Positions 5,968-31,243 of a stretch of 64,000 nt of DNA are shown piece after piece. The stretch comes from Arthrobacter sp. SLBN-100 (GTDB taxonomy: Bacteria; Actinomycetota; Actinomycetes; Actinomycetales; Micrococcaceae). A model generated the notes under the pieces. It had not been told where the DNA came from and ran no database searches. It saw only the letters and a list, made by a program, of their open reading frames with translations. The position numbers and the translations under genes were made by a program. How positions within the stretch are numbered: position 1 is the first letter of the stretch; every line of letters starts with the position of its first letter. Where the stretch lies: the NCBI RefSeq assembly GCF_006715305.1, contig NZ_VFMY01000001.1, forward strand, positions 3,100,001 through 3,164,000. The letters run 5' to 3'.

Positions 5968-6020
5968 CCGCCAGGAACGCGGGCACGGAGATGGCTGCCC
6001 CTATGAAGGAGAAACCCAGT

Positions 6021-7681: not shown

Positions 7682-7689
7682 TTCTTTCC

Positions 7690-7708: not shown

Positions 7709-7742
7709 CACCTACCCCATTACTAAGAAAGCCGGACCTGCT

Positions 7743-13950: not shown

Positions 13951-14404
13951 CCTCGTAGTCCTTAATCAGGCTGACCTTCTCAGCCGAGGCAGAGGTTTCG
14001 TCGAAGGTGTAGGTGAGCCATTCGCGGGCGAGCCTGCGGGCCAGTTCGAGGCCGACGACGCGCTGGCCGAACGTCAGGACCTGGGCATTGTTGCTCAGGA
14101 CCGAGCGCTCCACTGAGAAGCTGTCGTGTGCGGTGACGGCGCGGACGCCGGGCACCTTGTTCGCGGCGATGGCCACGCCCAGGCCGGTGCCGCAGACCAG
14201 AAGGGCGCGGTCTGCTTTGCCGGCGGCGACGAGCTCGGCGGCGGCGATGGCCACCGACGGGTACGGGGTGTGGCTGGTGGCGTCCACCCCGACGTCGGTC
14301 ACGAATTCCACCAGGTCGGAAGCTTCCAGGTCAGCCTTCAGGGCTTCCTTGTATTCGAAACCGGCGTCGTCGCAACCGACGACCAGGCGCAGTTTGGCGC
14401 TCAT
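13934..14404 (-). CDS. eryI: D-erythrulose-4-phosphate isomerase (RpiB family)
   Basis: A 156-residue RpiB/LacAB-type isomerase. The active-site Cys lies in '[15 protein letters not shown]' (about residues 68-82) and the N-terminal '[11 protein letters not shown]' replaces the usual 'GSDHAGF'. EryI converts D-erythrulose-4-phosphate to D-erythrose-4-phosphate, delivering the product to the pentose-phosphate pathway. ATGA overlap with the lerK stop indicates translational coupling. A pentose-phosphate isomerase role is possible but fits the neighbours less well. Confidence 0.75.
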
Positions 14405-16143
14405 GCTTTCTCCTTAATGGTGGTCCGCTCGATAAGCGTGTTGTGGATTGCCCGGATGATCAATGCCATGGATACTGCTCCGGCGTCGGGGGTGCCGAGG
14501 CTCTTCCCGGCGTGCGGACGGGCCCGGCCCATCAGGGGCAGCAGCCGGGCGGTGTCCTCAGCAGCCTGCTCTGCGGTCACCGCGGCGGCCGCCCAGGCCT
14601 CCGTGAGGGACTTGCCGGCTTCGACGCCGGACGCCAGGGCATCGCGGAACGGAACCAGGACGTCCACCAGGGTCTTGTCGCCCGGCTTGGCCTTGCCGAA
14701 GTCCATGATGGCCGCCGCTGCACCTGCGACTCCAGCGGCGACGGCGCCGGCGTCGGGCGCTGTGCTGTCTCCTACGGCGTCGCCGACGGCGCGCAGGGCC
14801 ATTCCCCAGAGGGCGCCGGACGTGCCGCCGGCCTTGTCGGCCCAGGCATCTGCGGCGAAGTGCAGGGTGGTGGCGGCGCCGGCACCGCGGGCGACGGCGT
14901 CTTCCGCGGCGTCGACGGCGGCGCGGACACCGCGTTCCATGCCGATGCCGTGGTCACCGTCGCCGGCGATCGCATCGATCCGGCCCAGCTCGTCCGCGTT
15001 GGCGTCCACTACTGCCTTGGCAGCGCCGAGGGCGGCCAGGACACGGACGGCGCCGGCGCGCGACTCCGGCGCGGCGTCGGGGATGGAGAGCTCGACGTCG
15101 GCTGCCTCACCGCCGGTGGCGTCCAGGGCGTCAGCGGTGACGGCGCCGCGGCGGAAGGCCGGCGCGTCGGCGGGGGCGTTCCAGAGCTTCTCCAGTTCGT
15201 CATCAAGCCAGAACAGGGTGAGGGATGTTCCTGCCATGTCGAAGCTGGTGACGAGCTCGCCCACCTGCGGGTCCACGGCTTCCAGGCCTGCTTCAGCGAG
15301 GAGCTGGGCGATGCGGCGGTACACCACGAAGAGCTCTTCGTACTTGACGCTGCCCAGGCCGTTGAGGATGGGGACCACACGGGCTCCCTCTGCGACGGTG
15401 CCCTCCGGGACCTCGGTCAGGAGCTTGGACACCAGCAGTTCGGCGAGCTCATCCGCCGTCGGAATGTCCGTTTCGCCTATGCCCGGTTCGCCGTGGATAC
15501 CCATGCCCACAGCCATGCGGCCCTCAGGGACGGAGAACAGCGGGTGGTCCGCGCCCGGGAGGGTGCAGCCGGTGAACGCGACACCGAACGAACGGGTGCG
15601 GTGGTTCGCGCGCCCGGCGATTTCCACCACCGCGTCCATGGAGTAGCCGGCTTCCGCAGCGGCCGCAGCTACCTTGAAGACGGTGAGGTCACCGGCGATG
15701 CCGCGGCGCTTGGCGCGCTCCGCCAGCGGGGCGGAGGAAACGTCGTCAGTGACGGCGATGCTGCGGCAGTCGATGCCCTCCTTGCGGAGGCGGTCCTGGG
15801 CCTGGGTGAAATGCAGGACGTCACCGGCGTAGTTGCCGTAGCCCAGCAGCACACCACCGCCATTGTCCGCGGCCTTAGCCACGTTGTAAACCTGTTGCGC
15901 CGAGGGGGAGGCGAAGAGGTTACCCATTGCCGCTCCGTGAGCCAATCCCTGGCCCACCAGTCCGGCGAAGGCCGGGTAGTGGCCGGAGCCGCCGCCGATC
16001 ACCAGCGCCACTGTGTCCGGGGTGCTCTTGGTGTTGCGGACAACGCCGCCGGACACGCGCTTGACCCAGCGTTGGTGGGAGGCGACGAAGCCCTCGATCA
16101 TTTCGTCAGCAAAAGCTGCGGGTTCGTTGAACAGGCGGGTCAT
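14401..16143 (-). CDS. lerK: fused DhaK-DhaL kinase, probable L-erythrulose 1-kinase
   Basis: A 580-residue ATP-dependent ketose kinase. The N-terminal DhaK domain (about 1-330) has '[12 protein letters not shown]' near residue 52 and the 'GIHGEPG' segment near 217 that positions the substrate. The C-terminal DhaL domain (about 375-575) has the Mg-ATP aspartates in '[12 protein letters not shown]' near 395. The length matches single-chain kinases such as LerK/DerK. With eryH and eryI downstream, L-erythrulose is the likely substrate rather than dihydroxyacetone. It follows the transporter gene after a 99-bp gap that holds a hairpin. Confidence 0.75.
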
Positions 16144-16207
16144 GGCAAAGCTCCTGGGCCTAACTAGGGGAAGGTCGTGATTCGGGCGGGCTGGCGATGC
16201 AGGCGCC

Positions 16208-16235
16208 GGGCGCCCTTCCGGGGAGAAGGGCGCCC
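16208..16235 (-). promoter_or_regulatory. hairpin between transporter and kinase genes
   Basis: A perfect 11-bp stem (16208-16218 with 25-35 of the same block, 16225-16235) and 6-nt loop lie just after the MFS stop codon on the minus strand. No T-run is evident. It probably separates message levels of transporter and enzymes, not a full stop. Confidence 0.45.
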
Positions 16236-16242
16236 CTTGGTC

Positions 16243-17607
16243 CTACGGCTCGGCGTGGTGGCCGGCGCCCGCGGGGTCGAGCGCTTCAGCCTGTACGCCT
16301 TCGCTGACCTTGCCGGAGCGGCTGAGGGTGACCATCAGGATGCAGGACAGGAGCATGAACCCGCCCACGACGAACATCGGCACGGCGTAGCTGCCGGTCC
16401 AGTCCTTGAGCCAGCCGGTGACGTAGCCTGCGCTGAAGCCGGCAAGGTTGCCCACGGTGTTGATCAGGGCGATGCCTGCGGCTGCTGCTGCGCCGGTAAG
16501 GAACTGGGTGGGTACCGTCCAGAAGTTGGGCAGGGCCGCGAAGATGGACATGGCGGTGATGGTGATGACGGCGATGGTGGCTGCCGGGGAGCCCGCGAAC
16601 AGGGCCAGCGGGATGCTGATGGCGCCGGTCAGGGCGGGAAGTGCAATGTGCCAGGTCTTGACGCCCCGCTTGGTGGCGTCCTTGGACCAGAAGTACAGGG
16701 CGAAAGCTGCCGGCAGGTACGGGATCGCGGTGATCAGGCCCTTCTGGAAGACGTCGAACTTGGTGCCGTAGATGCCTTCGAAGCCGGAGATGATGGTGGG
16801 CAGGAAGAACCCGAGGGCGTACAGGCCGTAGATGAATCCGAAGTAGATCGCGGAGAGCATCCAGACGCGGCCGTTGCCGAACACGGTGCGGACGCTGACG
16901 TGCTTGTTGCCTGCTGCGGTTTCCTTCTTTTCCTTCTCCAGGGCGCCCGTCAGCCAGGTCTTCTCGTCCTGCGTCAGCCACTTGGCTTTAGCGGGGGAGT
17001 CAGCGAGGTAGAACCAGGCGACCACGCCGATGAGAATGGCGGGGACGGCGACGCCGAAGAACATAACGCGCCAGCCCTCGAGGCCGAAGAGGCCGTGCTG
17101 CTGGATGAGGAGGCCGGCCAGCGGGGCGCCGATCACGGTGGTCAGCGGCTGGGCCAGGTAGAAGAGGGCGAGGATCTTGCTGCGGTGGCGGGACGGCACC
17201 CAGAGGCTGAGGAAGAGGATGGCGCCGGGGAAGAAGCCGGCCTCGGCCACGCCCAGGATGAAGCGCAGGATGTAGAGCTGCTCAACGTTGCCCACCCAGG
17301 TGAACAGCAGGGAGACGATACCCCAGCTGACCATGATGCGGGCGAGCCAGCGGCGGGCGCCGAACTTGTGCAGGGCCAGGTTGCTGGGGACCTCAAGCAG
17401 GATGTAGCCGATGAAAAAGACGCCGGACGCGAAGCCGAACTGTGCCGCCGAGAGCGCCAGGTCTGTGTTCATGCCGTTGGGGCCGGCGAAGGAGATGGCC
17501 GTGCGGTCCAGGTAGTTGATGAAGAACATCAGGGCGACGAACGGCACAAGCCGGATCGCCACCTTCCTGATAGCAGATTTTTCGACCACGGATTGTGTGG
17601 TGTCCAC
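16243..17607 (-). CDS. MFS anion:cation symporter (ACS family), probable apionate importer
   Basis: A 454-residue twelve-helix major facilitator protein. The ACS-family signature is in the first helices ('FFINYLDRTAISFAGP', 'SGVFFIGYILLEVPSNLAL'), like galactonate, glucarate and tartrate permeases. The start chosen is GTG at 17607, which has AGGAG 5 nt upstream; a longer reading frame to 17727 would have to cross the promoter and lacks a ribosome binding site. First gene of the operon. An acid importer here suggests that the cell takes up D-apionate or a related sugar acid directly. Confidence 0.82.
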   Translation of the reverse strand: MDTTQSVVEKSAIRKVAIRLVPFVALMFFINYLDRTAISFAGPNGMNTDLALSAAQFGFASGVFFIGYILLEVPSNLALHKFGARRWLARIMVSWGIVSLLFTWVGNVEQLYILRFILGVAEAGFFPGAILFLSLWVPSRHRSKILALFYLAQPLTTVIGAPLAGLLIQQHGLFGLEGWRVMFFGVAVPAILIGVVAWFYLADSPAKAKWLTQDEKTWLTGALEKEKKETAAGNKHVSVRTVFGNGRVWMLSAIYFGFIYGLYALGFFLPTIISGFEGIYGTKFDVFQKGLITAIPYLPAAFALYFWSKDATKRGVKTWHIALPALTGAISIPLALFAGSPAATIAVITITAMSIFAALPNFWTVPTQFLTGAAAAAGIALINTVGNLAGFSAGYVTGWLKDWTGSYAVPMFVVGGFMLLSCILMVTLSRSGKVSEGVQAEALDPAGAGHHAEP

Positions 17608-17722
17608 GTTGACTCCTAGATAGTGATGTTCCCGGCCGCTTCCTTCGCTGGAGGCTTGGGGTTCTGTCGCCTGGCCGCCAAAGTGTGAGGACGCGAGGGC
17701 GGCTACAAAGTGTGTGAGTTCC

Positions 17723-17752
17723 ACCATAAAAGATAAACCCCAAATTGGTCAA
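17723..17752 (-). promoter_or_regulatory. promoter of the apionate operon
   Basis: On the minus strand TTGACC (17747-17752) and TATGGT (17723-17728) are separated by 18 bp, a good sigma-70-type arrangement. The -35 hexamer overlaps the palindrome at 17748-17761, so a bound regulator would exclude RNA polymerase. Confidence 0.6.
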
Positions 17753-17761
17753 CCGGTTGAC
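17748..17761. promoter_or_regulatory. operator, perfect 14-bp palindrome
   Basis: GTCAACCGGTTGAC is a perfect palindrome in the divergent region between the transporter gene and the FadR-type regulator. It overlaps the operon's -35 box. Its size and position suit a FadR/GntR dimer, most simply the adjacent regulator (inference). Confidence 0.6.
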
Positions 17762-17812
17762 TTGTTCTTTTTTCGGATGTCTGAGTGGAAAGGCGGTTGC
17801 TAGGCTTGAAGC

Positions 17813-18556
17813 GTGCCCATAAACTCTGCCGCCTCGTCGGCCAAAATCAGCGAAGCGCTTGGCTCTGTGGGCCAGGGCTCCGTTGTGTCCGAGGTCGCCG
17901 AGCGCCTGCTCGCCTACTTCACCAGCGGCGATATCGCCGTCGGAACAAGGCTTCCGGCCGAGCGCCAGCTCGCCGCTTCGTTGGGCGTGGGCCGGTCTGC
18001 AGTGCGGGAGGCCCTCGCCGCACTGGAGATTCTGGGGATCGTGATCGTCCGGCCGGGTTCCGGGACATACCTGCGTGACGGCATCTCCGAACTCCTGCCC
18101 CGCACCTTGAGCTGGGGCCTGATGCTGGGCGCTCCCCGGACCCGCGAGCTCGTGGAATTGCGGAGCGGCCTTGAGGTGCAGGCGGCACAGCTCGCGGCTG
18201 AACGCATCACGGGGGAGTCGCTGGACCGGATGCGCGCCAATCTGGCCACCATGGCAGAAACCCTTGAAGACCTCGCCGCCTTTGTGGAGGCAGACGCCGC
18301 GTTCCACCGGGAGATCGCGGAAAGTTCAGGCAACCAGGTGCTGCAGGAGCTGCTGCAGAGCATTAGGTCCCTGCTGCGGATCTGGGTGGACCGCGCCCTC
18401 ACCGACGAGGGTCACGCCGCCGCCGCCCTGAAGGAGCATACGGAGATCTTCACTGCCCTCGAGGCGCATGACAGCGAGGCGGTCACCAGGACCATGCGTT
18501 CCCACATGCTTACCGCATCCAAGCGGTTGCTCGCCGGCTTCGACGCCTCACAGTAG
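17813..18556 (+). CDS. FadR-type (FCD) GntR regulator of the apionate operon
   Basis: A 247-residue regulator. The winged helix (about residues 25-90) has 'LPAERQLAASLGVGRSAVREALAALE', an almost ideal FadR-group HTH. The FCD domain (about 100-240) carries 'DAAFHREIAESSGN' and 'EHTEIFTAL' with the metal-binding Asp/His set. It starts at GTG 17813 and is divergent from the transporter/lerK/eryI/eryH/oiaC/apnO operon. It probably represses that operon and its own gene through the intervening palindrome, with an acid or C4 sugar as inducer. Confidence 0.88.
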   Translation: MPINSAASSAKISEALGSVGQGSVVSEVAERLLAYFTSGDIAVGTRLPAERQLAASLGVGRSAVREALAALEILGIVIVRPGSGTYLRDGISELLPRTLSWGLMLGAPRTRELVELRSGLEVQAAQLAAERITGESLDRMRANLATMAETLEDLAAFVEADAAFHREIAESSGNQVLQELLQSIRSLLRIWVDRALTDEGHAAAALKEHTEIFTALEAHDSEAVTRTMRSHMLTASKRLLAGFDASQ

Positions 18557-18774: not shown

Positions 18775-19668
18775 ATGGAGTCGACGACGACGGCAGGGCA
18801 GGTCCTCAAGGGGATAGAGTTCGCCCGACCTGAGGGTGCCACCCCGCTGCTGCTGGACCTTTATTTCCCTGCGGCGGCGCCCGCAGGGAGAGGCTTCCCC
18901 GCAGTAGTCCACTTCCACGGCGGCGGCTGGCGGACTGGCGAACGGTCCTCACTGGGGCCCATCGTGGACGGACTCGGCCCCAGCCCCATCGAACAGCTGG
19001 TCAACGCAGGCTTCCTCGTGGCTTCTGCTGACTACCGCCTCAGCACTGCCGCCACGTTCCCCGCCCAACTGCTGGATGCCAAGGCCGCCGTCCGCTGGCT
19101 CAGGGCGCATGCGCCCGACTACAACGTGGACCCGGAGCGGATCTACGCCTGGGGCGATTCGGCGGGCGGCCACCTCGCCAGCCTGGTGGGACTCACGGCT
19201 GGAGCGAAGGAGTTCCAGTCCGACGCCGACGCCGCGGGCAGTGGTACGGAGGACGCCGTCGCCGCGGTCGCTGCGTGGTACCCGCCCACCGACCTGAACC
19301 GGATGGGCGAACAAGCCCGGCCCGACGCCGTCGCACGCGCCGATGATCCAGGCTCGCGGGAGGCGTTGCTCATCGGAGTGCAGCCGTCTGACGCACCTGA
19401 CAAGGCAGCTGCAGCCAGCCCCATCACTTACGTGCACGCGGCCGCACCGCCCTTCTTCCTGGTGCATGGATCGGCCGATCGTTTCGTCCCCGCGGCCCAG
19501 TCCGTCACCTTCGCCGCGGCGCTGGAAGGTGCGGGCGCCGCCGTCGAACTCCTCCTGATTGAGGACGCGGATCATATGTGGGCGCTCGCAGACAAAAGCC
19601 CGGCCGCCGCTGAGCAGGCCACCGCCGCCACCATTGATTTCTTCCGCCGCCAGGCGCAAGCACACTGA
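18775..19668 (+). CDS. alpha/beta hydrolase (HSL/BD-FAE-like esterase)
   Basis: A 297-residue esterase with an intact triad. The oxyanion motif 'HFHGGGW' is near residues 46-52, the nucleophile Ser129 is in 'WGDSAGGH', an acidic residue follows 'HGSADRFV', and His is in 'EDADHMWAL'. Members hydrolyse small acyl or feruloyl-type esters. It is the first gene of a same-strand run with an FAH hydrolase, an aromatic hydroxylase and a DUF3500 protein, suggesting cleavage of an ester or C-C bond in an aromatic pathway. Substrate cannot be read from sequence. Confidence 0.82.
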   Translation: MESTTTAGQVLKGIEFARPEGATPLLLDLYFPAAAPAGRGFPAVVHFHGGGWRTGERSSLGPIVDGLGPSPIEQLVNAGFLVASADYRLSTAATFPAQLLDAKAAVRWLRAHAPDYNVDPERIYAWGDSAGGHLASLVGLTAGAKEFQSDADAAGSGTEDAVAAVAAWYPPTDLNRMGEQARPDAVARADDPGSREALLIGVQPSDAPDKAAAASPITYVHAAAPPFFLVHGSADRFVPAAQSVTFAAALEGAGAAVELLLIEDADHMWALADKSPAAAEQATAATIDFFRRQAQAH

Positions 19669-19722
19669 CCCAGAACCGTCCCGGTCCACGCACGTGCCCG
19701 GGCAGATTTGAAAGGCCTCCAC

Positions 19723-20595
19723 ATGCAGTTCATCGGCATCAACCACCACGGCGAACCCTGGGCAGCGGTCCTGCTGGAAACACGGGTGTTCCCGCTCGCC
19801 CCCGTCACCGACTTCTGGGCGGACCCGGAGGGCTGGCAAGACAAGGCTGTCCCGCTGGTCGAGGACGCATCAGCGTCCGACGCCGGTGCCTCGCTGGAGC
19901 GTGGGAGCGTCACCGAAGTGCCGCTCGTCCCCGCCTCGGCCCGGGTCATCTGCGTGGGCTTGAATTACAAAGCCCATGCAGCCGAGGGCAGCTACAAGGA
20001 CCAGGACCTCCCGCCGTACCCCACCCTCTTCGGCCGCTGGACCGCGTCCCTCTCCGTGGGCAACGTCCCGGTTCCCGTCCCTGCCGGCGAAGGAGGGCTG
20101 GACTGGGAAGGCGAAGTGGCGGCCTACATTGGCCGGCGGGTGGAATCCGCGGACGAGGCAGAAGCTGAAGGATCAGTCTTCGGCTACTCCACCTTCAACG
20201 ACATCACCTCCCGCACGGCCCAGAAGCTCACCTCGCAGTGGACGCTGGGCAAGAACGGCGACTTCAGCGGCCCGCTGGGACCGCTCGTCAGCCGCGACGA
20301 AGTGGGCGATCTCCGCGACGGCCTGCAGGTCCGCACCCGCGTGAACGGCGTCGAGGCCCAGAACGGCAACACCCGGGACATGATCTTCTCCGTTCCGGCC
20401 ATCATTTCGCTGATCAGCCAGACCTTCACCCTGCACCCGGGCGACGTGATCGCCACCGGTACCCCGGAGGGCGTCGGTTATGCCCGCACCCCGCAGTGGC
20501 TGCTCCAGCCCGGCGACACCGTCGAAGTGGAAATCGACAAGCTCGGCACCCTCACCACCCCCGTGGGCGAACTGTCCCTCCGGAGCCGTGCCTGA
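19723..20595 (+). CDS. fumarylacetoacetate hydrolase (FAH) family protein
   Basis: A 290-residue FAH-fold enzyme. The core 'VICVGLNYKAHA' is near residue 75. The metal-binding acids lie in 'DWEGEVAAYIG', and 'FNDITSR' and 'GDVIATGTPEGVG' complete the signature. Such enzymes hydrolyse or decarboxylate 2,4-diketo acids from ring cleavage. The ATG at 19723 has AAAGG 7 nt upstream. Its stop overlaps the start of the aromatic hydroxylase (TGATG), so the two are co-translated. It probably acts late in an aromatic pathway. Confidence 0.85.
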   Translation: MQFIGINHHGEPWAAVLLETRVFPLAPVTDFWADPEGWQDKAVPLVEDASASDAGASLERGSVTEVPLVPASARVICVGLNYKAHAAEGSYKDQDLPPYPTLFGRWTASLSVGNVPVPVPAGEGGLDWEGEVAAYIGRRVESADEAEAEGSVFGYSTFNDITSRTAQKLTSQWTLGKNGDFSGPLGPLVSRDEVGDLRDGLQVRTRVNGVEAQNGNTRDMIFSVPAIISLISQTFTLHPGDVIATGTPEGVGYARTPQWLLQPGDTVEVEIDKLGTLTTPVGELSLRSRA

Positions 20596-22346
20596 TGGTC
20601 ACCCTCCATCTGCCACCGGCACACGATATCCCGGGGGAGGTGCAGGTGCTGATCGCCGGCGGCGGCCCCAGCGGGTTGTTCCTGGCGCTGGACCTGGCCG
20701 CCCGCGGCATTCCCAGCACTGTCATCGAGCCCCGCGACGCCGTGGACCACACCCGCCCGCGGGCCAAGACCACCAACGCGCGCACCATGACGCACCTGCG
20801 CCGGCTGGGACTGGCCGATGCTCTGCGTGGCGCCTCCCCGCTCCCGGTGGACTACGCACAGGATGTTATTTTCTGCACCGGCCTCACCGGAACCGCCGCG
20901 CATGAGCTGCGCCGGTTCCGGAACGCCTTCCAGTTGGTCCCGGGCCGCTACGCCCTCCAGCCTGAATGCGGGCAGCAGGTCCCGCAGCCGGCACTGGAGG
21001 AAGTACTCCGCGCCGCCGCGGCAGACAGTCCGCTGGTCACCTTCATCACCGGCTGGAGTGTGCAGACGGTCCAACCGGCAGCCGAAACCCTTGGAACAGA
21101 GTCGCCGCACGCCGTCGTGGTGTCCGGCCCTGCAGCGGACCAGCGCAGCATCACCGCTGACTATGTGATCGGCGCCGACGGCGGGTCCTCCGCCGTCCGC
21201 CGCAGCCTGGATATCCGCCTGGAAGGCGGGTCCGCAGCGCTGTCCAACATCAGCATCCTCTTCCGTTCCAAGGACCTTGCCTCAGCCGTGGCCCTTGACC
21301 CTGCCGTCCAGTATTGGGTGGTGGGCTCGGACACGGCGGGCATGGTGGGGCCGATGGACCTGGAAGACACCTGGTGGGCCATCGTCCAGGGCGTGGACCC
21401 TGACATCACGGTCAGCGCTGAGGACGCGGGCGCCATGGTCCGCTCGCTGGTGGGATCGGCCGTGGACGTTGACGTGCTGGCCACAGACCCCTGGACCGCG
21501 CGCATGCTGCTCGCCCCTTCATACAGCAGCGGCAGCATCTTCCTGGTGGGCGACGCCGCTCACCTCAACCCGCCGTGGGGCGGCCACGGCTTCAACACGT
21601 GCATCGGCGATGCCGCCAATCTCGCGTGGAAGCTTGCCGCCACAATCAAGGGGTGGGCGGGCCCGGCGCTTCTGGCCAGCTATGAGGAGGAGCGCAGGCC
21701 GATAGCTGCCAGGACCATCCGCGACGCAGCAGCCAACGGCAAAGCCCTGGCTTACCACTTCGCCGCTCCTGACCTCGCCGCCGCCGGCCCCGCCGGGGAA
21801 GCAGCGCGGCAGGCGGCACACGAGGCCCTGGCCGTGAAGCGCAGCGAGTTCGATTCCGTGGGGCTGGTGCTCGGTTACGCCTATTGGGATTCGGCGGTGG
21901 TGGTGCCGGACGGCGCACCCGTCCCGGCAGAGGACCCCATCCACTATGTTCCCTCCGCCAGCCCCGGTTCCCTGTTGCCGCATGCGTGGCTGGAGGATGC
22001 CACCTCGCTGTACAGCCGGCTGGGCCAGGGCTTCACGCTGCTGGCCGACGCCGGCACCCTGGGCGGGGTGCCGGCCGCTACGGCTTTCGCGCCGGTGCTG
22101 GCAGCAGGTGCCCGGCAGGGCATCCCGGTGACCGTTTCCGCCGTCGGGCCTTCCGACGACGGGATGCCACTTTCGGAACTGGCGGGAGCGGACGCCGTGC
22201 TGGTCCGCCCGGACCAGCACGTGGCGTGGCGGGGCAGTTCCGCCGACGCTGCCGCCGCAGCATTGTCCGTCGCCGCCGGCCGGGCGCCATCATCACCTGC
22301 TGAAGCCGAACCAAGGAGCTCCCGTGTCAACGCCTTCATTCCGTGA
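20595..22346 (+). CDS. FAD-dependent aromatic monooxygenase (PheA/TfdB type)
   Basis: A 583-residue group A flavoprotein hydroxylase. The N-terminal dinucleotide motif 'LIAGGGPSGLFLALDLA' is near residues 18-35, the DG motif in 'YVIGADGGSSAVRR' near 195, and the GD motif in 'FLVGDAAHLNPPWGGHG' near 318. A thioredoxin-like C-terminal part follows, as in phenol hydroxylases. It inserts one oxygen into a phenolic ring using NAD(P)H. It is coupled to the FAH gene upstream and overlaps the DUF3500 gene by 23 bp. A trihydroxybenzoate or phloroglucinol-type substrate is my inference. Confidence 0.85.
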   Translation: MVTLHLPPAHDIPGEVQVLIAGGGPSGLFLALDLAARGIPSTVIEPRDAVDHTRPRAKTTNARTMTHLRRLGLADALRGASPLPVDYAQDVIFCTGLTGTAAHELRRFRNAFQLVPGRYALQPECGQQVPQPALEEVLRAAAADSPLVTFITGWSVQTVQPAAETLGTESPHAVVVSGPAADQRSITADYVIGADGGSSAVRRSLDIRLEGGSAALSNISILFRSKDLASAVALDPAVQYWVVGSDTAGMVGPMDLEDTWWAIVQGVDPDITVSAEDAGAMVRSLVGSAVDVDVLATDPWTARMLLAPSYSSGSIFLVGDAAHLNPPWGGHGFNTCIGDAANLAWKLAATIKGWAGPALLASYEEERRPIAARTIRDAAANGKALAYHFAAPDLAAAGPAGEAARQAAHEALAVKRSEFDSVGLVLGYAYWDSAVVVPDGAPVPAEDPIHYVPSASPGSLLPHAWLEDATSLYSRLGQGFTLLADAGTLGGVPAATAFAPVLAAGARQGIPVTVSAVGPSDDGMPLSELAGADAVLVRPDQHVAWRGSSADAAAAALSVAAGRAPSSPAEAEPRSSRVNAFIP

Positions 22347-23568
22347 TTTCCTTTTTGCCCCGGACCACCCGCGCGTGGCGGAGATCCGCGGCCTGGACGC
22401 GCGCGAGTACGCGGAGGCGGCCACCAGGGATTCCTTCGCCGGGCCCATGATCGAGGGCTGGAAGACGCTGTATCCGCAGCCGTTCAAAGGCATCACGAAC
22501 GACGGCGTCCTCCGTCCCGGGCTGTATCCCCTCGCCCCTGCGCGGGCGGGGGAGGAGGCGCCCACCGCGGAGATGGCGGCTGCGGCCCGCAAGCTTTTGG
22601 ACGCCCTGACCCTCGAGCAGGCGTCCCGGTTGAGCTATACAGTGGATGCGCCCGAGTGGCAGAGCTGGGCGAACCCGGAGTTTATGCAGCACGATACCGG
22701 GCTCCGCCTGGACGAGCTGGACGCGCCGGTGCGCGATGCCATATTCGCCGTGGTGGAAGCGTCCCTGAGCCCGGCGGGCTTTGAGCTGGTCCGCAACCTC
22801 ATGCGGATCAACGGCTTCCTCGGTGACCTGGTGGAGTTGCCCCTGCTGATGAACGAGTTCAGCTACAACTTCGCCCTGTACGGCGAGCCGTCCGAGACCG
22901 CGCCGTGGGGGTGGCAGCTTTTTGGCCACCACGCCGCGCTGAACTGCCTGGTGGCCGGAACGCAGCTGGTGATCTCGCCGGTGTTTATGGGTGCCGAGCC
23001 GGACGTCATCGACGCCGGGCCGCACCAGGGTGTGGCTGTGTTCAAGGAGCGCATCGCCCTGGCCCGTGAACTGATGGGTGCACTGCCTGCTGTGCTCCGG
23101 GCTGAAGCCACGGTGTACGAGTCCATGGTGGACCCGGCGATGCCGGAAGGCCGTCTTCATGCCGGGGATGAGCGGCATCTTGGCGGGTGCTTCCAGGACA
23201 ACCGGGTGATCCCTTACGAGGGCATTTCTGTTGCCGCTATGCCGGCGGAAGCCCGCAAGATCCTGGACGCGGTGGTGGAGGACTTTATTGCCTACCTCCC
23301 GGACGGGCCCAGGGCAGCGCGGCGCCGCGAGATCCAGGAGCACTACGACGAGACGTTCTTCAGCTGGATCGGCGGCTGGGAGGGGCAGGAGGCCTTCTAC
23401 TTCCGGCTGCAGAGTCCCATGGTGGTCCTGGAGCTGGACCACCACACCGGGGTTTTCCTCAGCAACGACGAACCCGCTCCGTTCCACATGCACACCGTGG
23501 TCCGGACGCCCAACGGCAACGACTACGGCCGCGAGCTGGTGAAGCAGCACTCATCGGTTGCTCCGTAA
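22324..23568 (+). CDS. DUF3500 family protein
   Basis: A 414-residue soluble protein of the DUF3500 family, with no signal peptide seen. It begins at GTG 22324, inside the end of the hydroxylase gene, so it is probably translated with it. Possible functional residues are the conserved-looking 'LFGHHAALN' (about residue 200), 'LELDHHTGVF' (about 375) and 'FHMHTVVRTPNGNDYG' (about 390), a histidine-rich set that could bind a metal. DUF3500 has no well-established biochemical role. The operon context suggests a step in aromatic or polyphenol breakdown. Confidence 0.75.
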   Translation: MSTPSFRDFLFAPDHPRVAEIRGLDAREYAEAATRDSFAGPMIEGWKTLYPQPFKGITNDGVLRPGLYPLAPARAGEEAPTAEMAAAARKLLDALTLEQASRLSYTVDAPEWQSWANPEFMQHDTGLRLDELDAPVRDAIFAVVEASLSPAGFELVRNLMRINGFLGDLVELPLLMNEFSYNFALYGEPSETAPWGWQLFGHHAALNCLVAGTQLVISPVFMGAEPDVIDAGPHQGVAVFKERIALARELMGALPAVLRAEATVYESMVDPAMPEGRLHAGDERHLGGCFQDNRVIPYEGISVAAMPAEARKILDAVVEDFIAYLPDGPRAARRREIQEHYDETFFSWIGGWEGQEAFYFRLQSPMVVLELDHHTGVFLSNDEPAPFHMHTVVRTPNGNDYGRELVKQHSSVAP

Positions 23569-23627
23569 CCGCCTTTTTGAACGTCGAAAAGGGCATCTAC
23601 GGAGCAGTCGATGGTCCACGGAAACCA

Positions 23628-23665
23628 AGATGGCCCGGACTTCCTGTCGGAAGTCCGGGCCATCT
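23628..23665. terminator. bidirectional terminator, 16-bp stem
   Basis: A perfect 16-bp stem (23628-23643 with 23650-23665) and 6-nt loop lie between convergent genes; its arms read ATGGCCCGG inward. A short T-containing tail follows on the plus strand. It ends both the DUF3500 operon and the quercetinase message. Confidence 0.8.
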
Positions 23666-23677
23666 GCTTTGTAGACG

Positions 23678-24748
23678 CTAGGAGATTTCCAGCGCGGTCC
23701 GGCGCTGTGGCGGCGGGCCCACCACGGTCAGGTCCAACTCGGCCTGCGCGCGGCCGAAGCCTTCCATGTCCATGTAGGGCTCGCCGCCCTCGGTGTACAT
23801 GTAGTCGTCGGTCGGCTTGTTGAAGTATTCAAAGAACCCGTTGAATACCGACGGCGTGAGGAAGCCCAGCATCTGGGTGTTGTGCGAGTCCAGGGCAAAG
23901 GAGTGGACAGTGCCGGCGGGGGCATGGACAAAGTCGCCCTTGGTCAGCAGCATTTCCCGGCCGTTGGCGTACAGCCACATGCGGCCTTCGGTGACGAGGA
24001 AGTTCTCGGTGTGCTCCGAGTGGAAGTGCAGCGGAATGTAGGGCGTCTTGGCGCCCTTGGTGTGCACCGCGAAGTAGTTCGAGCCGGTGTTGGCCGGCCG
24101 GGACAGGTAGGTGAACATGGTCTGGTAGCTGATCAGGCGCTCGCCCTCGTGCGCACTCAGGAAGTAAGGCCTCTGCGTGGGCGGCAGGCCGGCGTCGTGC
24201 TTGAAGGAAGGCTCCACGCGCTCAACGTCGGGGAAGGTGATGCCGAACTCGGCGCCAACTTCGGCCTGTTCCTGGAGGCTGGCCTTGTGGCCGGCCCGGA
24301 CGGGCGGGATGTGGGCGTCAATGGGGGTGCCGACGCGCTCGTAGTAGGCCTCGGCGCCGCCCGGCGTCATCCAGTTGAGGAAGCGGGTGTAATGGCTGGC
24401 CATGCGGTAGGCATGGGGAGTGTTCGGCGGGATGACCACGGAGTCGCCGGGGGTGAGGATGCGGCTTTCACCGGACAGCCAGACGTGCAGGATCCCGTCG
24501 AAAACGTAAAGGGTTTTGTGCTCCACCTTGTGGCTGACGAACGGCGATTCCCGGCCCATTCCGCCGGAGATGTAGGCGGCGCTGAAGATTCCGCCGGTAT
24601 CCGCCGCGCGGGCGATAACGGTGACCAGCTGGCCGTTGATCTCGTAGCGTGCGCCTTCGCCTGACGCCATGTAGTAGGGGACAGCTTCACCGGGCAGGGT
24701 GTTGGCCACCGGCAGTTGCTGGTTCATTTCCTCCACGCTGAGGGACAT
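23678..24748 (-). CDS. quercetin 2,3-dioxygenase-like bicupin
   Basis: A 356-residue two-cupin protein resembling bacterial quercetinases (YxaG/QdoI), which open the C ring of quercetin, releasing CO and a depside. The C-terminal cupin keeps all four metal ligands: H-x-H and Glu in 'LHFHSEHTENF' (about residues 238-248) plus His in 'GTVHSF'. In the N-terminal cupin the first His is Val and the Glu is Lys ('VSHKVEHKTLYV'), so only two of four ligands remain. It is divergent from a type-B carboxylesterase across a shared inverted repeat. Confidence 0.75.
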   Translation of the reverse strand: MSLSVEEMNQQLPVANTLPGEAVPYYMASGEGARYEINGQLVTVIARAADTGGIFSAAYISGGMGRESPFVSHKVEHKTLYVFDGILHVWLSGESRILTPGDSVVIPPNTPHAYRMASHYTRFLNWMTPGGAEAYYERVGTPIDAHIPPVRAGHKASLQEQAEVGAEFGITFPDVERVEPSFKHDAGLPPTQRPYFLSAHEGERLISYQTMFTYLSRPANTGSNYFAVHTKGAKTPYIPLHFHSEHTENFLVTEGRMWLYANGREMLLTKGDFVHAPAGTVHSFALDSHNTQMLGFLTPSVFNGFFEYFNKPTDDYMYTEGGEPYMDMEGFGRAQAELDLTVVGPPPQRRTALEIS

Positions 24749-24833
24749 GGTTCCTTCTTTCCAGTCGTCCGGCTGCGCCGGGATGTGACCTCCATCATCA
24801 CTCGTGCCTGCGTGTGACCACGAGCCGGAATTT

Positions 24834-24871
24834 CAATGGGTGAAAGCCCAAGTGTGCTGCTCCACCCATTG
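24834..24871. promoter_or_regulatory. inverted repeat in the divergent quercetinase/esterase promoter region
   Basis: CAATGGGTG (24834-24842) and CACCCATTG (24863-24871) are perfect 9-bp inverted arms 20 bp apart, within the 170-bp interval between the two divergent genes. The layout suits a regulator controlling both genes together. No regulator gene is adjacent, so its identity is open. Confidence 0.5.
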
Positions 24872-24918
24872 CTGGGATGCTGGCAGTCACACCTACGCCA
24901 CCAGGAGTACCAGCCGGC

Positions 24919-26472
24919 ATGACCCTCGCCACCAGCGCAGCCACCGCCACCACTGCCCAAGGAACCGTCCGCGGCGCAACCTCCTTGGTTGGTGGCCGCG
25001 GTGTCAGCTGCTTCCTGGGGATCCCTTACGCAGGTTCCCCGGCCGGGAAGCGCCGCTTCCTGCTGCCGGTCCCCGCGGAGGGCTGGACCGGAGTGCGGGA
25101 GTGCACGATGGCGGGACCCGCAGCGCCCCAGAACCCCGAGACTCCGGCTCCGCCTGGCCGCAAGCCGCGGACGTGGAGCGAAAGCGAATGCCTCAACCTG
25201 AACGTCTGGACGCCGGATTTGGCCGGTTCGGGGTTGCCCGTGATGGTGTGGGTCCATGGCGGCGCGTACGTTTCGGGCTCGGGCAGTGACGGAATGTGCG
25301 ACGGCGCCAATCTCGCAGGTGCGACCGGCGCTGTTGTGGTGACCATCAATTACCGGCTGGGTGCGCTGGGTTTCCTGCACCTGGGTGAGCTGCTGGGACC
25401 TGAGTATGCCGACTCTTCGAACGTTGCACTGCTGGATGTGCTCGAGGCACTGCAGTGGGTCAAGAGGAACATTGGGTCCTTCGGCGGGGACCCGGACAAC
25501 GTGACGGTCTTTGGTGAGTCTGCCGGGGCTGCCGCTGTGGGCACGCTGCTGGGAATGCCTGCTTCGCAAGGACTGTTCCGGCGGGCGATCATGCAGAGCG
25601 GTACGGCTGAGAGGTACCGGAGTGGGGAGGATTCTTCCCGGATCAGCCTCGAGTTCCTATCGCTGTGCGGGCTGGAGTCTGCTCGTGCCCGCGACTTGTT
25701 GACGCTCCCGGTGGAACGGCTGCTGGAGGCCCAGGAGCAGCTGGTGCAGCGGTTCGGGGCGCGCACCCACGCAGTGCCGCTGCCGTTCCAGCCCACGGTG
25801 GGAACGCCGTCACTTCCTGTGCCTCCGCTGGAGTCGGTACGAAATGGCCTTAATTCCGATGTTGACCTGCTGATCGGGACGAACCTGAATGAAGGGTCAT
25901 TTGCCGTGGAGATGCGGCCGGTGGATTCGTCGGAGCCGTCCCCTGCGGAGCGTGCTGCAGCGGTGCTGGCGGACGCCGGGGCTGCCTTTGGACGGGTAGG
26001 GCAGTACGCGCAGGCTCTCGGTGCCGCCTTGGGGGCGGAGCCCAGCGGCAAACAGTTGCTGGAAGCGGCCGTTTCCGACGCCGTGTACCGGCAGCCCAGC
26101 AACCGCCTGCTGGATGCCCGGCAGGGGTGCTCGGGGAAGACCTTTTCCTATCTCTTCACCTGGCGCAGCCCTGCCATGGGCGGGAAGCTGGGCGCGTGCC
26201 ATGCCCTGGATATCCCGTTCGTGTTCCGGCAGCTGGGCTCGCCCGAGGCGGCGTTCCTCACGCGGGGGACGGCGCCGGAGAGCCTAAGCGAGATGATGAG
26301 CACCGCCTGGGCCGCGTTCGCGCAGACGGGCAAGCCCGCCGCCGTCGGCTTGCCTGACTGGCCGCTTTATGGTCCGGGCCGCAGGACCATGATCCTCGAC
26401 GAACCGCCACGGGTGCAGGACGATCCGCGCCGGGAACTCCGCGGGTTCTGGGCGGAGACGCCGGCAGGCTAG
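24919..26472 (+). CDS. type-B carboxylesterase
   Basis: A 517-residue carboxylesterase/lipase of the PnbA type. The nucleophile is Ser201 in 'FGESAGAAAV', the acid is probably the Glu in 'TNLNEGSF', and the His is in 'GACHALDIPFVF'; the oxyanion block 'VHGGAYVSGS' is intact. The ATG at 24919 has AGGAG 11 nt upstream and is preferred over an in-frame ATG at 24877 without a ribosome binding site. No signal peptide is seen, so it is cytoplasmic. Next to a quercetinase it is a plausible depside or phenolic-ester hydrolase. Confidence 0.82.
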   Translation: MTLATSAATATTAQGTVRGATSLVGGRGVSCFLGIPYAGSPAGKRRFLLPVPAEGWTGVRECTMAGPAAPQNPETPAPPGRKPRTWSESECLNLNVWTPDLAGSGLPVMVWVHGGAYVSGSGSDGMCDGANLAGATGAVVVTINYRLGALGFLHLGELLGPEYADSSNVALLDVLEALQWVKRNIGSFGGDPDNVTVFGESAGAAAVGTLLGMPASQGLFRRAIMQSGTAERYRSGEDSSRISLEFLSLCGLESARARDLLTLPVERLLEAQEQLVQRFGARTHAVPLPFQPTVGTPSLPVPPLESVRNGLNSDVDLLIGTNLNEGSFAVEMRPVDSSEPSPAERAAAVLADAGAAFGRVGQYAQALGAALGAEPSGKQLLEAAVSDAVYRQPSNRLLDARQGCSGKTFSYLFTWRSPAMGGKLGACHALDIPFVFRQLGSPEAAFLTRGTAPESLSEMMSTAWAAFAQTGKPAAVGLPDWPLYGPGRRTMILDEPPRVQDDPRRELRGFWAETPAG

Positions 26473-27491: not shown

Positions 27492-28526
27492 TTATCTGGT
27501 TGTGGTCAGCAGGAGCGGTGAGCAGCTGCTGCGTGGGACGAAGTCGGCTTTGACTTCGATGGTGCGGGGAGCGGGCGGGAGTTTGCCGTGCATGCGTCCG
27601 AGTACCAGCTCCAGCGAGTGGACTGCGAGCATGCCGATGGGCTGTCGGATGACGCTCAGCGGAGGGCTTATCAGCTCAGTCCAGGGATTGTCATCGAAGA
27701 CAATCACCGACAGATCCTCGGGTATCTGCACGCCGATCTGGACCAGCCGGCGCACCGAGCTCTGAACCTGTGCTGTGTTGGCCACAATGAGCCCTGTAGG
27801 ACGATCGGGAAGGGCAAGGAGCGAGCCCACCGCATCACCTCCGCCGTCTCCGCGGAAAGGGACATCGCGTATCAGCTGTGGATCGGTGCTGACCGAGAAG
27901 GCCTCGTGGGCTGCCCGGTATCCGTGGATCCTTGCCTGCCCGGTTGAGGTGCTGACAGGCCCGGTAATGAGGCCGATACGCCTGTGGCCCAGGTTGAGGA
28001 TGTGTTCGGTGGCCCGCCGGGCGGAGTCGACGTTTTCGATGCTGACGACATCGACGTCTTCCAGTTCCGCGATGGTGCGGTCGACGAAGACAACGTTGAC
28101 GCCCATGGATTGCAGGCGCGCCCATTTTTCAACGTTCGCTCCCGTGGGCGTAGCAATGACTCCGGCAACAGAACGGTCAAGCAGGGTGTCAAGGGAGTCA
28201 GCCTCGAGATGGGGGTCTTCCTGGGTGGTCATCACCACCACCTGCACGCCGTGGCTGCGGGCTTCCCAGACGATCCGGTCCGCGAGTTGCGCGAAGAATG
28301 GGTTGGCAAGATCGGCAACCACCAGGCCCACTGTCAGGGCCTGGCCCACACTCAGTTCGCGGGCTGCGGCGCGCGGCCTGTAACCAAGCTCATTAATGAC
28401 CCCCAATACGGCTTCACGTTTCGCAGGCGCAACCGGGCCCGATTCCGGGTTCAGGACGCGGGATACCACGGAGACGGAAACGCCCGCCGCCGCTGCGACA
28501 TCCCGAATAGTTGGCGCCTTCTTCAC
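27492..28526 (-). CDS. LacI-family transcriptional regulator
   Basis: A 344-residue repressor with an N-terminal LacI HTH ('TIRDVAAAAGVSVSVVSRVLN', residues about 5-25), a hinge helix, and a periplasmic-binding-protein-like effector domain. The start is taken as GTG 28526 because AAGAGGAGG lies 4 nt upstream; an in-frame ATG at 28553 has none. It is divergent from the SAF oxidoreductase/TRAP operon and probably binds the 16-bp palindrome at 28661-28676. It leads the ABM/gntK operon. The effector is unknown. Confidence 0.88.
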   Translation of the reverse strand: MKKAPTIRDVAAAAGVSVSVVSRVLNPESGPVAPAKREAVLGVINELGYRPRAAARELSVGQALTVGLVVADLANPFFAQLADRIVWEARSHGVQVVVMTTQEDPHLEADSLDTLLDRSVAGVIATPTGANVEKWARLQSMGVNVVFVDRTIAELEDVDVVSIENVDSARRATEHILNLGHRRIGLITGPVSTSTGQARIHGYRAAHEAFSVSTDPQLIRDVPFRGDGGGDAVGSLLALPDRPTGLIVANTAQVQSSVRRLVQIGVQIPEDLSVIVFDDNPWTELISPPLSVIRQPIGMLAVHSLELVLGRMHGKLPPAPRTIEVKADFVPRSSCSPLLLTTTR

Positions 28527-28629
28527 TGCTCCTCCTCTTCGAGGTCCGTACATGGCTGCCGGCAGGGGGACTCACCTGTCCGCGCTGTATCCCTTGCCAA
28601 GTAACCTTCACGGCCTTCCGTTGTGACTG

Positions 28630-28659
28630 TTGACACAGCCTAACACCGACTGGTACAAA
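28630..28659 (+). promoter_or_regulatory. promoter of the TRAP/oxidoreductase operon
   Basis: TTGACA (28630-28635) and TACAAA (28654-28659) with an 18-bp spacer form a good promoter upstream of the SAF-domain oxidoreductase gene. The LacI-type palindrome begins 1 bp past the -10 box. Confidence 0.6.
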
Positions 28660-28660
28660 A

Positions 28661-28676
28661 GTGGAACCGGTTCCAC
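28661..28676. promoter_or_regulatory. LacI-type operator, perfect 16-bp palindrome
   Basis: GTGGAACCGGTTCCAC is a perfect palindrome with the central CG pair typical of LacI-family sites. It covers the predicted transcription start of the divergent operon, so binding by the adjacent LacI protein would repress it. Confidence 0.7.
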
Positions 28677-28768
28677 TCCGGTCCCAGAATTCCAGTTAGC
28701 GACGAAGAAGTTGCTCCGCCCGCTCGGCGGAGGGTCCTTCACGCTGAACGTAATCAGAGAGATCCCCA

Positions 28769-30121
28769 ATGAACCTTCACAAGCTTCTTAGCGACCGCGA
28801 GCAAGAAGGCCGTCCCATCCGAGTCGGACTCATCGGAGCCGGACGGTACGGAACGATGTACCTGGCCCAGGCAAATAACATCCCCGGGATCCATGTAGTG
28901 GCGATCGCCGACATCAACGTCAAGCGTGCAGAAGGTGCCTTCGACCTCGTCGGCTGGCCGAAGAACCAGATCGCCCCGGACATCGCCACCGCATTGCGGA
29001 ACCGCACCACGACGATCGTTGCAAACGCCGACGAGCTCTTTGACGTTGACATCGACATCATTGTTGAGGCAACAGGTAACCCAATCGTCGGCGTGAAGCA
29101 CGCCCTGCGCGCCATCGAAACCAAAAAGCACATCATCATGGTCACCGTCGAGGCAGACGCCTTGGCCGGCCCTGCCCTGGCCCGCCGCGCCGAAGCTGCT
29201 GGCGTCGTCTACTCCATGGCCTACGGGGACCAGCCGGCCCTCATTATGGAACTTGTCGACTGGGCACGCACGAGCGGCTTCGATGTTGTCTGCGCCGGCA
29301 AGGGTGCCAAGTTCCTTGAGCACTACCACGAGATGAACCCGGACAACGTCTGGGAGAACTGGGAGTTCTCCAAGGAACTTACCGACTCCGGGCAGCTGAA
29401 CCCGAACATGCACACCTCCTTCCGTGACGGCACCAAGGCTTCCATTGAGATGGCCGCAGTTGCCAATGGGGCCGGATTGGTGCCCTCAGACACCGGGCTG
29501 ACCTTTACGCCCGGGGACGTCGAGGAAATCGCCACCATCTGCCGTCCCGCAGAGGCCGGGGGCGTCCTCGCCCACGAAGGCAGCGTCGAAGTCATGTCCA
29601 GCGTCAAGCGCGACGGCACATGGATTCCCCACAACACCCAGGAGGGCGTGTTCGTCGTTGTGAAGGCCACCAACGAATACGTCTCCGGCTGCTTTACCGA
29701 ATACCCCTGGCACCCGGACCCCACCGGCCAGTACGCAGCGCTGTACCGGCCCTACCACTACGTGGGACTGGAACTGAACATGTCCATCGCCAACGCGGTG
29801 CTCCGCGGGGTTGCCACGGGTTCCCCGATCGGGTTCTTTGGCGACGTCGTGGCCACGGCGAAGAAAGACCTCAAAGCCGGCGAGTTCCTGGACGGCGAAG
29901 GTGGGTACACGGTCTGGGGCCAGCTGGTTTCGGCCAAGCACTCCGTCGCAACCGGCGCGCTGCCGGTGGCCCTGGCCCACCACGTGGAACTGCGCAACGA
30001 CGTTCCCAAGGGCGGGATTGTGGGCTGGGATGACGTCATCATGGACGAGTCCCTGGCCCAGGCCCTCGAACTCCGGCGGGAAACCGAAGCCCTCGTCGGG
30101 GAATCCGTCCTCAGCGCCTGA
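28769..30121 (+). CDS. NAD(P)-dependent oxidoreductase with C-terminal SAF-like domain
   Basis: A 450-residue protein combining a homoserine-dehydrogenase-like Rossmann domain ('VGLIGAGRYG', residues 19-28; 'VEATGNP' near 107) with a C-terminal SAF-like region (about 355-440, 'AKKDLKAGEFLDGEGG'). Homologues are often labelled Gfo/Idh/MocA or FlgA-like, without proven activity. It begins the operon with a TRAP transporter and a beta-hydroxyacid dehydrogenase, so it probably oxidises or reduces the imported acid. Substrate is unknown to me. Confidence 0.75.
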   Translation: MNLHKLLSDREQEGRPIRVGLIGAGRYGTMYLAQANNIPGIHVVAIADINVKRAEGAFDLVGWPKNQIAPDIATALRNRTTTIVANADELFDVDIDIIVEATGNPIVGVKHALRAIETKKHIIMVTVEADALAGPALARRAEAAGVVYSMAYGDQPALIMELVDWARTSGFDVVCAGKGAKFLEHYHEMNPDNVWENWEFSKELTDSGQLNPNMHTSFRDGTKASIEMAAVANGAGLVPSDTGLTFTPGDVEEIATICRPAEAGGVLAHEGSVEVMSSVKRDGTWIPHNTQEGVFVVVKATNEYVSGCFTEYPWHPDPTGQYAALYRPYHYVGLELNMSIANAVLRGVATGSPIGFFGDVVATAKKDLKAGEFLDGEGGYTVWGQLVSAKHSVATGALPVALAHHVELRNDVPKGGIVGWDDVIMDESLAQALELRRETEALVGESVLSA

Positions 30122-30211
30122 ACTTTCCCGCACAGGCGGACGCGGCGTGAACTTCAACCGATGCGGTTCACGCCTCCGGAAAAGACACCTTCCAAAGAAG
30201 AAAGGCATCAC

Positions 30212-31243
30212 ATGAAATCCAAGACCCGCGCCCTCACGGGAGTGCTGGCATGCACCCTCGCGGCTTCAGTCCTCGCCGGATGCGCCTCTGCGGCCCCGGC
30301 GGGATCTGGAAGCCCGGCAGCCAAGATCCAGCTCTCCATCCCGGACCCGCTCACCTCCTCTGTCGGCGTCACGGCCCAGCACTTCGCTGAGCAGGTCAAA
30401 AAGTCGTCCAACGGATCCGTCACCGTCACGGTGGTTCCCAACGGGACAAGCTTCAGCGGCGACCAGAACGCGGCCGTCACACGCCTTCAGGGCGGTTCCC
30501 TCGACGCGCTGATCCTCTCGACGTCTGTTTACGCGTCCGTCGTACCGGAAATGAATGCCATCAGCATCCCGTACCTCTTCAAAGACACCGCCGAGGAGGC
30601 CGCCTTCCTCAGCGGGGAGCCGGGTGAGGCGCTGAAGGACAAGCTCGCCAAGAAGGACACTGTGGCGCTTAGTTTCCTCACCAGGACCGGCCGCGAAATC
30701 ACCAACTCCGTGCGTCCCATCCAGCAGCCTTCGGACTTGAAGGGACTGAAGATCCGCGTCCCCGGCAACACGTTGTGGACCGACTACTTCACCAAGCTCG
30801 GCGCCAGCCCGACAACCATGGCCTTCTCGGAGGTGTTCACCGGCCTTCAGACCGGCACCATCGACGGGCAGGAAAACCCCATCGAAGTACCATGGACCAA
30901 CAAGTTTTCAGAAGTCCAGAAGTACGTCTCGCTGACCAACCACATCAACGACGCCTGGGTCCTGGCGCTGTCCTCCAAGAAGTGGGACAGCCTGTCCGAG
31001 GACCAGAAGAAGGCCGTCACCGAAGCCTCCACAGAGACCGCCACCTTCAAGACCGGTTATGACGACGAGCAGTCCAAGAAGCAGCTGGACGAGCTCAAGG
31101 CCAAGGGCATGCAGGCCAACGAGGTTACCGCTTCCGGGCTGGAGGAATTCAAAGCCGCTTCCAAGAGCCTCTATCCGGAGTTCTCCAACCTGATCGGCAA
31201 AGAGTTCTTCGACCAGGCCATAGCCTTCACCGCTAAGAAGTAG
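30212..31243 (+). CDS. dctP: TRAP transporter substrate-binding lipoprotein
   Basis: A 343-residue DctP-type periplasmic-type receptor, here membrane-anchored: the signal peptide ends in the lipobox L-A-G-C with Cys24. The conserved carboxylate-binding Arg of the family is probably in 'LKGLKIRVPGN' (about residue 185). 'GTIDGQENPIEVPW' near 220 is the standard TRAP block. The ATG at 30212 has an AAGAAAGG upstream. It delivers a carboxylate (often a sugar acid or hydroxy acid) to the DctQM permease. Confidence 0.88.
   Translation: MKSKTRALTGVLACTLAASVLAGCASAAPAGSGSPAAKIQLSIPDPLTSSVGVTAQHFAEQVKKSSNGSVTVTVVPNGTSFSGDQNAAVTRLQGGSLDALILSTSVYASVVPEMNAISIPYLFKDTAEEAAFLSGEPGEALKDKLAKKDTVALSFLTRTGREITNSVRPIQQPSDLKGLKIRVPGNTLWTDYFTKLGASPTTMAFSEVFTGLQTGTIDGQENPIEVPWTNKFSEVQKYVSLTNHINDAWVLALSSKKWDSLSEDQKKAVTEASTETATFKTGYDDEQSKKQLDELKAKGMQANEVTASGLEEFKAASKSLYPEFSNLIGKEFFDQAIAFTAKK

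Follow-up and report, generated by a model that had tools for sequence, protein, structure and literature searches.

Which genes allow aerobic bacteria to take apart the A ring of plant flavonols is the question raised by a group of six genes in Arthrobacter sp. SLBN-100; the open-licence literature searched assigns no genes to the aerobic bacterial fate of this ring (2,4,6-trihydroxybenzoate). The genes lie in a stretch of 64,000 nucleotides (G000:C1:3100001-3164000, hereafter the window); the genome comprises 4.94 Mb and is assembled into two contigs. Four of them, for a BD-FAE-type esterase, a hydrolase of the FAH family, an FAD-dependent aromatic hydroxylase and a DUF3500 protein, form a packed operon that converges on the gene of a quercetinase-like bicupin; the sixth encodes a type-B carboxylesterase. 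An earlier note, made from the DNA letters, had read this group as a possibly complete flavonol degradation island. Domain matches and open frames place all six genes where it put them and on the strands it claimed, and all are intact (18775-26472). We consider it highly probable that the cluster serves to degrade quercetin and other plant flavonols. With less confidence, we favour a route in which the A ring would pass through 1,2,3,5-tetrahydroxybenzene (THB), by means of a quercetinase, an esterase, a hydroxylase, ring opening by the DUF3500 protein and the FAH hydrolase.

The genes of the operon are tightly packed: 54 bases separate the esterase gene from the FAH gene, the FAH stop overlaps the hydroxylase start (TGATG) and the DUF3500 gene starts 23 bases inside the 3' end of the hydroxylase gene. 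A contig scan confirmed 119 DUF3500 loci, the best 80 of which were examined, with 39 weaker ones left out. At thresholds of our own choosing (for FAH at least 45% identity over at least 60%, and at most 4 kb from mid to mid), an FAH gene accompanies DUF3500 in 78 of the 80 loci; the misses are L106 and L050, whose contig starts shortly before DUF3500. Because contig ends truncate several of the loci, some gene absences are not real. The window's genome holds 16 FAH-family matches, from which we estimate that a random 20-kb neighbourhood contains one in about 6% of cases. The hydroxylase is found in 58 of the 80 loci. Within the Arthrobacter-type clade (38 loci with DUF3500 at least 75% identical) the hydroxylase is present in all 38, FAH, BD-FAE and bicupin in 37 each, the second esterase in 21, a GH78 rhamnosidase in 20 and the type-B esterase in 4. 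The corresponding figures for the other 42 loci are 41 for FAH, 20 for the hydroxylase, 18 for BD-FAE, 5 for the bicupin and 8 for a QueD-like monocupin. In these 42 loci a quercetinase of either kind occurs in 13/20 with the hydroxylase against 0/22 without it, and in 13/18 with BD-FAE against 0/24 without it. Gene order is preserved across many loci.

The search for co-occurrence of DUF3500 with five families, suggested in the earlier note, thus bears out FAH, hydroxylase, BD-FAE and bicupin, but fails for the type-B esterase, which occurs in only 4 of all 80 loci. The latter is ruled out as a core step and is at most an optional neighbour. Depside cleavage is more plausibly assigned to the BD-FAE esterase, present in 49 of the 50 loci with a quercetinase at these thresholds.

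Similar tendencies are observed for whole genomes. In a first set of 59 genomes (that of the window and its relatives) 19 have DUF3500; the bicupin is found in 15 of these 19 and in none of the 40 others (Fisher p = 1e-10; since the Fisher tests ignore phylogeny, this and the following p values are too small). The distance between the two genes is at most about 4 kb in all 14 genomes with an unbroken bicupin. A second set, a few members of which also belong to the first, consisted of 248 genomes drawn from the order: the bicupin is found in 9, DUF3500 in 40 and both in 8 (p = 2e-6), at most about 6.5 kb apart in 6 of these 8. In G059 the two genes are on two contigs, each at the very end, and in G104 they are on different contigs. 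Outside the genus, DUF3500 is present in 4 of 5 bicupin genomes (p = 0.002). In one genome DUF3500 and bicupin are both fragmented, side by side (G011:C1:1856501-1858246; loci L019, L021, L023 and L042), and the stretch fetched there gave no match for FAH, hydroxylase or BD-FAE. With the remains of both genes at a single site, decay seems to have struck the cluster as a whole.

One indication of the substrate comes from the bicupin. In line with the earlier note, which called it quercetinase-like, its top solved relatives are the quercetin 2,3-dioxygenases of Bacillus (YxaG; 2h0v and 1y3t, 213 bits). With these it shares two cupin domains and the 3His-1Glu set of the C-terminal cupin (H241, H243, E248 and H282), which is invariant in 57 aligned rows (the window plus 56 loci, some genomes appearing twice) save one row cut by a contig end. 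Unlike YxaG, whose metal ligands we take to be the equivalent residues, the N-terminal cupin reads V71, H73, K78 and H112, so that the first His and the Glu are lost. None of the 55 rows with letters at these positions has His as the first ligand or Glu as the third. Judged by these residues, the protein is quercetinase-like and not a two-site enzyme of the YxaG type. In this branch only the C-terminal site is probably functional. The bicupin also differs from YxaG in sitting among A-ring genes.

A second type of quercetinase appears in Geodermatophilaceae. In 8 of the 42 loci outside the clade (Blastococcus, Modestobacter and one further genus) a cupin of about 198 residues adjoins BD-FAE, FAH, DUF3500 and hydroxylase genes. 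For the one tested (L113) the best solved relative is Streptomyces QueD (5fli; 154 bits, against 148 for YxaG); the window has no such gene. That two quercetinase types share one gene context speaks for a flavonol as the common substrate. It might be argued that the bicupin acts on something else and that the operon degrades another polyphenol or an acylphloroglucinol, as its similarity to YxaG is moderate, its N-terminal metal set is degenerate, DUF3500 and FAH also occur with other hydroxylases and a quercetinase is absent from 30 of the 80 loci at the thresholds used. Set against the two quercetinase types, and the rhamnosidase, glucosidase and protocatechuate genes that lie near in relatives, we find this quite improbable.

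These further genes concern the sugar and the B ring. At C1:3094963-3100626 the window's genome encodes an IclR regulator (sharing 96% identity with its counterpart in L045), a GH78 rhamnosidase, a BD-FAE-like esterase and then a second Abhydrolase_3 esterase. This block is at and just left of the window edge, the rhamnosidase gene itself being outside; sugar-acid and polyol genes occupy the roughly 18 kb that separate it from the operon. In L053 the IclR, GH78 and two esterase genes form one block with the operon, and L045 is similar. Overall, GH78 is found in 21/80 loci and GH1 in 13/80, and the natural substrate may plausibly be rutin or a glycoside like it. In L048 (Arthrobacter agilis) the bicupin is followed by protocatechuate genes; PcaH and pcaI/pcaJ-type CoA-transferase subunits score above curated cut-offs and pcaD- and pcaF-like genes below. 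In L121, a metagenome-assembled Brevibacterium genome, pcaG and pcaH are about 4.4 kb from DUF3500. In the window's genome PcaH and PcaG, both scoring above cut-off, are encoded at about 2.84 Mb on C1, roughly 0.28 Mb from the operon. The island is therefore neither complete within the window nor a single block in this genome. Nonetheless, the idea of linked genes for flavonol breakdown, including a branch for trihydroxybenzoate, is strongly supported by the gene linkage and by the glycoside and protocatechuate genes near in relatives.

The distance of the rhamnosidase block, the unrelated genes between and the fragments in G011 could also be taken to mean that the genes are chance neighbours, or a decaying island without joint function. 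We regard this as scarcely credible: the order is kept across loci, the associations recur and the window's genes are intact, while the linkage counts over loci and genomes, with a pattern that holds outside the genus too, rule out chance neighbours.

We propose the following route from gene content, packing, linkage, families and conserved residues; every substrate in it, and the order of steps 2 to 5, is predicted. In step 1 the bicupin quercetinase would open the C ring of the flavonol, giving carbon monoxide and a depside. The BD-FAE esterase (step 2) would split the depside into protocatechuate, in the case of quercetin, and 2,4,6-trihydroxybenzoate. In step 3 the FAD hydroxylase would swap the carboxyl group for a hydroxyl group, or hydroxylate phloroglucinol formed by decarboxylation; either would yield THB. 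The DUF3500 protein (step 4) would cleave THB between adjacent hydroxyl-bearing carbons (C1-C2) to 2,4-dihydroxymuconate, the enol of 2,4-dioxoadipate, which is an acylpyruvate, and in step 5 the FAH protein would act as an acylpyruvase and release pyruvate and malonate. Protocatechuate would be degraded through pca genes elsewhere in the genome. We infer that gallate, 2,4,6-trihydroxybenzoate (hydroxyl for carboxyl) and hydroxylated phloroglucinol converge on the same THB. The earlier note held a hydroxylase and an FAH-type hydrolase to be what ring opening would require. Both keep a place in the pathway, but the DUF3500 protein is the likely opener, with the hydroxylase preparing the ring and FAH acting afterwards.

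Family assignments agree with these roles to different degrees. The hydroxylase scores above a curated cut-off (NF004780, 652 bits against 445) and contains the FAD_binding_3 domain; the flavin motifs that we take to define a class A flavoprotein are present. FAH remains below the cut-off of every NCBIfam FAH model listed, the best being NF053535 (159.8 bits against 500). It belongs to the same family as the acylpyruvases L-2,4-diketo-3-deoxyrhamnonate hydrolase (8gsr) and FAHD1 (6fog), its own substrate being a prediction. Its residues GLNYKAHAAE (from 79), LDWEGEVAA (from 126) and FNDITSR (from 158) contain the HxxE pair, the ExE and the Asp that presumably make up the catalytic or ligand motif of FAH acylpyruvases.

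For pyruvate and malonate as end products we see an even chance. This prediction preceded the family identification of the neighbour genes, whose sequences had already been listed unnamed. CoA-transferase III genes lie within 5 kb of DUF3500 in 12/80 loci, directly after it in L080 and L083, and AccD/AccA-like carboxyltransferase genes do so in 12/80 as well. For the two CoA-transferases tested the best curated match is succinate-glutarate CoA-transferase, below cut-off; the AccD/AccA-like genes are also below theirs. A pyruvate carboxylase above cut-off adjoins FAH in L092. These genes are compatible with malonate and pyruvate, yet are no proof of them.

The DUF3500 protein is the least characterized of the set, and the earlier note gave it no assigned role. 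A protein search scored at least 3084 relatives among 7999 candidates. The DUF3500 proteins nearest to that of the window bear Arthrobacter and Pseudarthrobacter names, and a match is also present in the control genome of Corynebacterium glutamicum, a convenient species for laboratory work. A role has however been proposed in Aspergillus nidulans, where, according to excerpts of PMC12388069, a DUF3500 protein is suggested to convert THB to 5-hydroxydienelactone, the THB being made from gallate by PhyA. By this proposed fungal role the DUF3500 protein becomes the likely ring opener here, and it is fairly probable, as far as sequence can tell, that it opens the ring through THB. In excerpts of two other papers, growth of Aspergillus niger on gallate survives the loss of 17 genes considered for ring cleavage (PMC10512348), and a DUF3500 gene is among those special to one Rhodococcus strain (PMC8416521). 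D282, H285, H373, H374 and other residues are invariant in 28/28 close members of the family, and absent from ApmL and two distant members.

In several loci a small protein of some 135 to 145 residues follows DUF3500 (L024:10493-10924, L088:11227-11658, L105:11261-11692 and L108:11254-11661), and SnoaL_4 matches 2 of 116 neighbour proteins. A short protein is said to occur in the fungal THB cluster, and the small protein might parallel that one.

Thirteen plasmid records have a DUF3500 match, five of which were opened. DUF3500 adjoins FAH, together with other oxygenase genes, in plasmids of Thioclava (L128) and Paraburkholderia sprentiae (L129, conjugative by PLSDB typing). In a Rhodococcus plasmid the distance is 2.7 kb with a cupin gene between; on an S. 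chartreusis plasmid DUF3500 is beside a Rieske oxygenase, with no annotated FAH, and in Deinococcus it has no evident aromatic context. We put it at slightly better than even that bacterial DUF3500 is a ring-cleaving enzyme whose fold differs from those of the known intradiol and extradiol dioxygenases; that the cluster represents the first THB central pathway in bacteria, leading from the flavonol A ring to pyruvate and malonate; and that DUF3500-FAH is a portable ring-opening core which, in Actinobacteria and some Proteobacteria, receives its substrates from different oxygenases.

Besides the degenerate N-terminal cupin, several observations weigh against this pathway or one of its steps. 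One genome (G122) carries the bicupin without DUF3500. The window-type hydroxylase is missing in 22 of the 80 DUF3500 loci, which means that DUF3500 is not flavonol-specific. CoA-transferase and carboxyltransferase genes occur in only 1 of the 38 clade loci, so that use of malonate here would need unlinked genes. Thioclava has, next to DUF3500-FAH, hpa-type genes including an annotated extradiol dioxygenase, and DUF3500 is not the sole candidate for ring opening there. Finally, the only solved DUF3500-like structure found, 9x86 (Amc20/ApmL), is titled a dehydratase of amipurimycin biosynthesis. It shares the DUF3500 fold; with such a title on record, a single reaction probably does not account for the whole family. 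ApmL is 27% identical to the window's protein and lacks E225, H373, H374 and the 279-292 motif, though some other active-site residues are kept. One could accordingly suppose a flavonol pathway in which DUF3500 acts earlier or later than ring opening, as a dehydratase, hydratase, tautomerase or lactone enzyme, with THB or another triol opened by auto-oxidation or an unlinked dioxygenase. This seems rather unlikely, since D282, H285, H373, H374 and further residues constant in close members are lacking in ApmL, and since the neighbour proteins scanned show no second ring-opener family that recurs next to DUF3500. Among 116 neighbour proteins compared with Pfam (picked from 178 candidates of 23 loci, the five largest gene clusters being left out), Dioxygenase_C matches 2, and no other ring-opener family is among the 25 commonest of 81 families, single cases being possible. 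A tblastn search of 99 loci with PcaH and PcaG gave matches in L048 and L121 only. Ring opening by DUF3500 is the version we consider likelier.

Coordinates of the features are collected in Table 1; the inverted repeat is terminator-like by inspection.

Table 1. Features of the cluster and its left flank (window positions)
Feature	Position	Strand	Remarks
BD-FAE/Abhydrolase_3 esterase, candidate depside esterase	18775-19668	+	PF20434, E 3e-59
FAH-family hydrolase, candidate acylpyruvase	19723-20595	+	PF01557, E 5e-64
FAD-dependent aromatic hydroxylase (class A flavoprotein)	20595-22346	+	PF01494, E 2e-68; PF21274, E 2e-12
DUF3500 protein, candidate ring-opening enzyme	22324-23568	+	PF12006, E 5e-102, profile positions 2-297 of 297
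Perfect 16-bp inverted repeat, 4-base loop	23629-23664	.	between converging DUF3500 and bicupin genes
Quercetinase-like bicupin	23678-24748	-	Cupin_2, two stretches
Type-B carboxylesterase, optional neighbour	24877-26472	+	PF00135, E 4e-98
Second Abhydrolase_3 esterase, 3' part	1-626	+	gene start C1:3099682, outside window

Other modules surround the cluster. Positions 1578-8972 (+) hold a sugar-acid module (a solute-binding protein, two MR/MLE-type enzymes, a KDPG-type aldolase and a PfkB kinase), and a block like it is directly upstream of the operon in L027. DhaK/L-like, triose-phosphate-isomerase-like, MFS and GntR genes follow at 12332-18556. The MFS transporter (16243-17727, -) and GntR (17813-18556, +) were set aside as pathway parts, the transporter having a match in only one of the 38 clade loci, L104 (E <= 1e-8). 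There the MFS, GntR, DhaK/L and triose-phosphate-isomerase genes are together on the opposite side of the bicupin, and the DhaK/L-MFS-GntR genes thus look like a separate polyol module. To the right, 27492-31243 encodes a LacI regulator, a DRL_cat oxidoreductase (PF21135) and what looks like a TRAP-type binding protein on visual inspection.

Roots and leaf litter commonly contain quercetin glycosides, and the cluster may therefore mark plant-associated soil Actinobacteria. If the proposed route is true, it provides a testable gene set for the flavonol A ring, assigns a function to DUF3500, a widespread domain that had none, and predicts malonate as an end product. Our search of open-licence papers found no bacterial flavonol-fed THB pathway. 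Martins et al. are said to have described in 2024 a fungal cluster that also has an FAH-like gene, with 2,4,6-trihydroxybenzoate named as a substrate. In the excerpts seen, one paper mentions THB only as an anaerobic co-substrate (PMC13039779), and a paper of 2026 (PMC13094099) describes the THB pathway as seemingly confined to fungi, which the proposed route would contradict. The closest known system is the fungal THB central pathway: as far as excerpts of PMC12388069 and PMC13094099 describe it, it combines a DUF3500 protein as proposed ring opener with an upstream flavin monooxygenase (PhyA, acting on gallate), as is found here at the family level. The window's cluster differs from it in being bacterial and in its linkage to genes for a quercetinase, a depside esterase and glycosidases.

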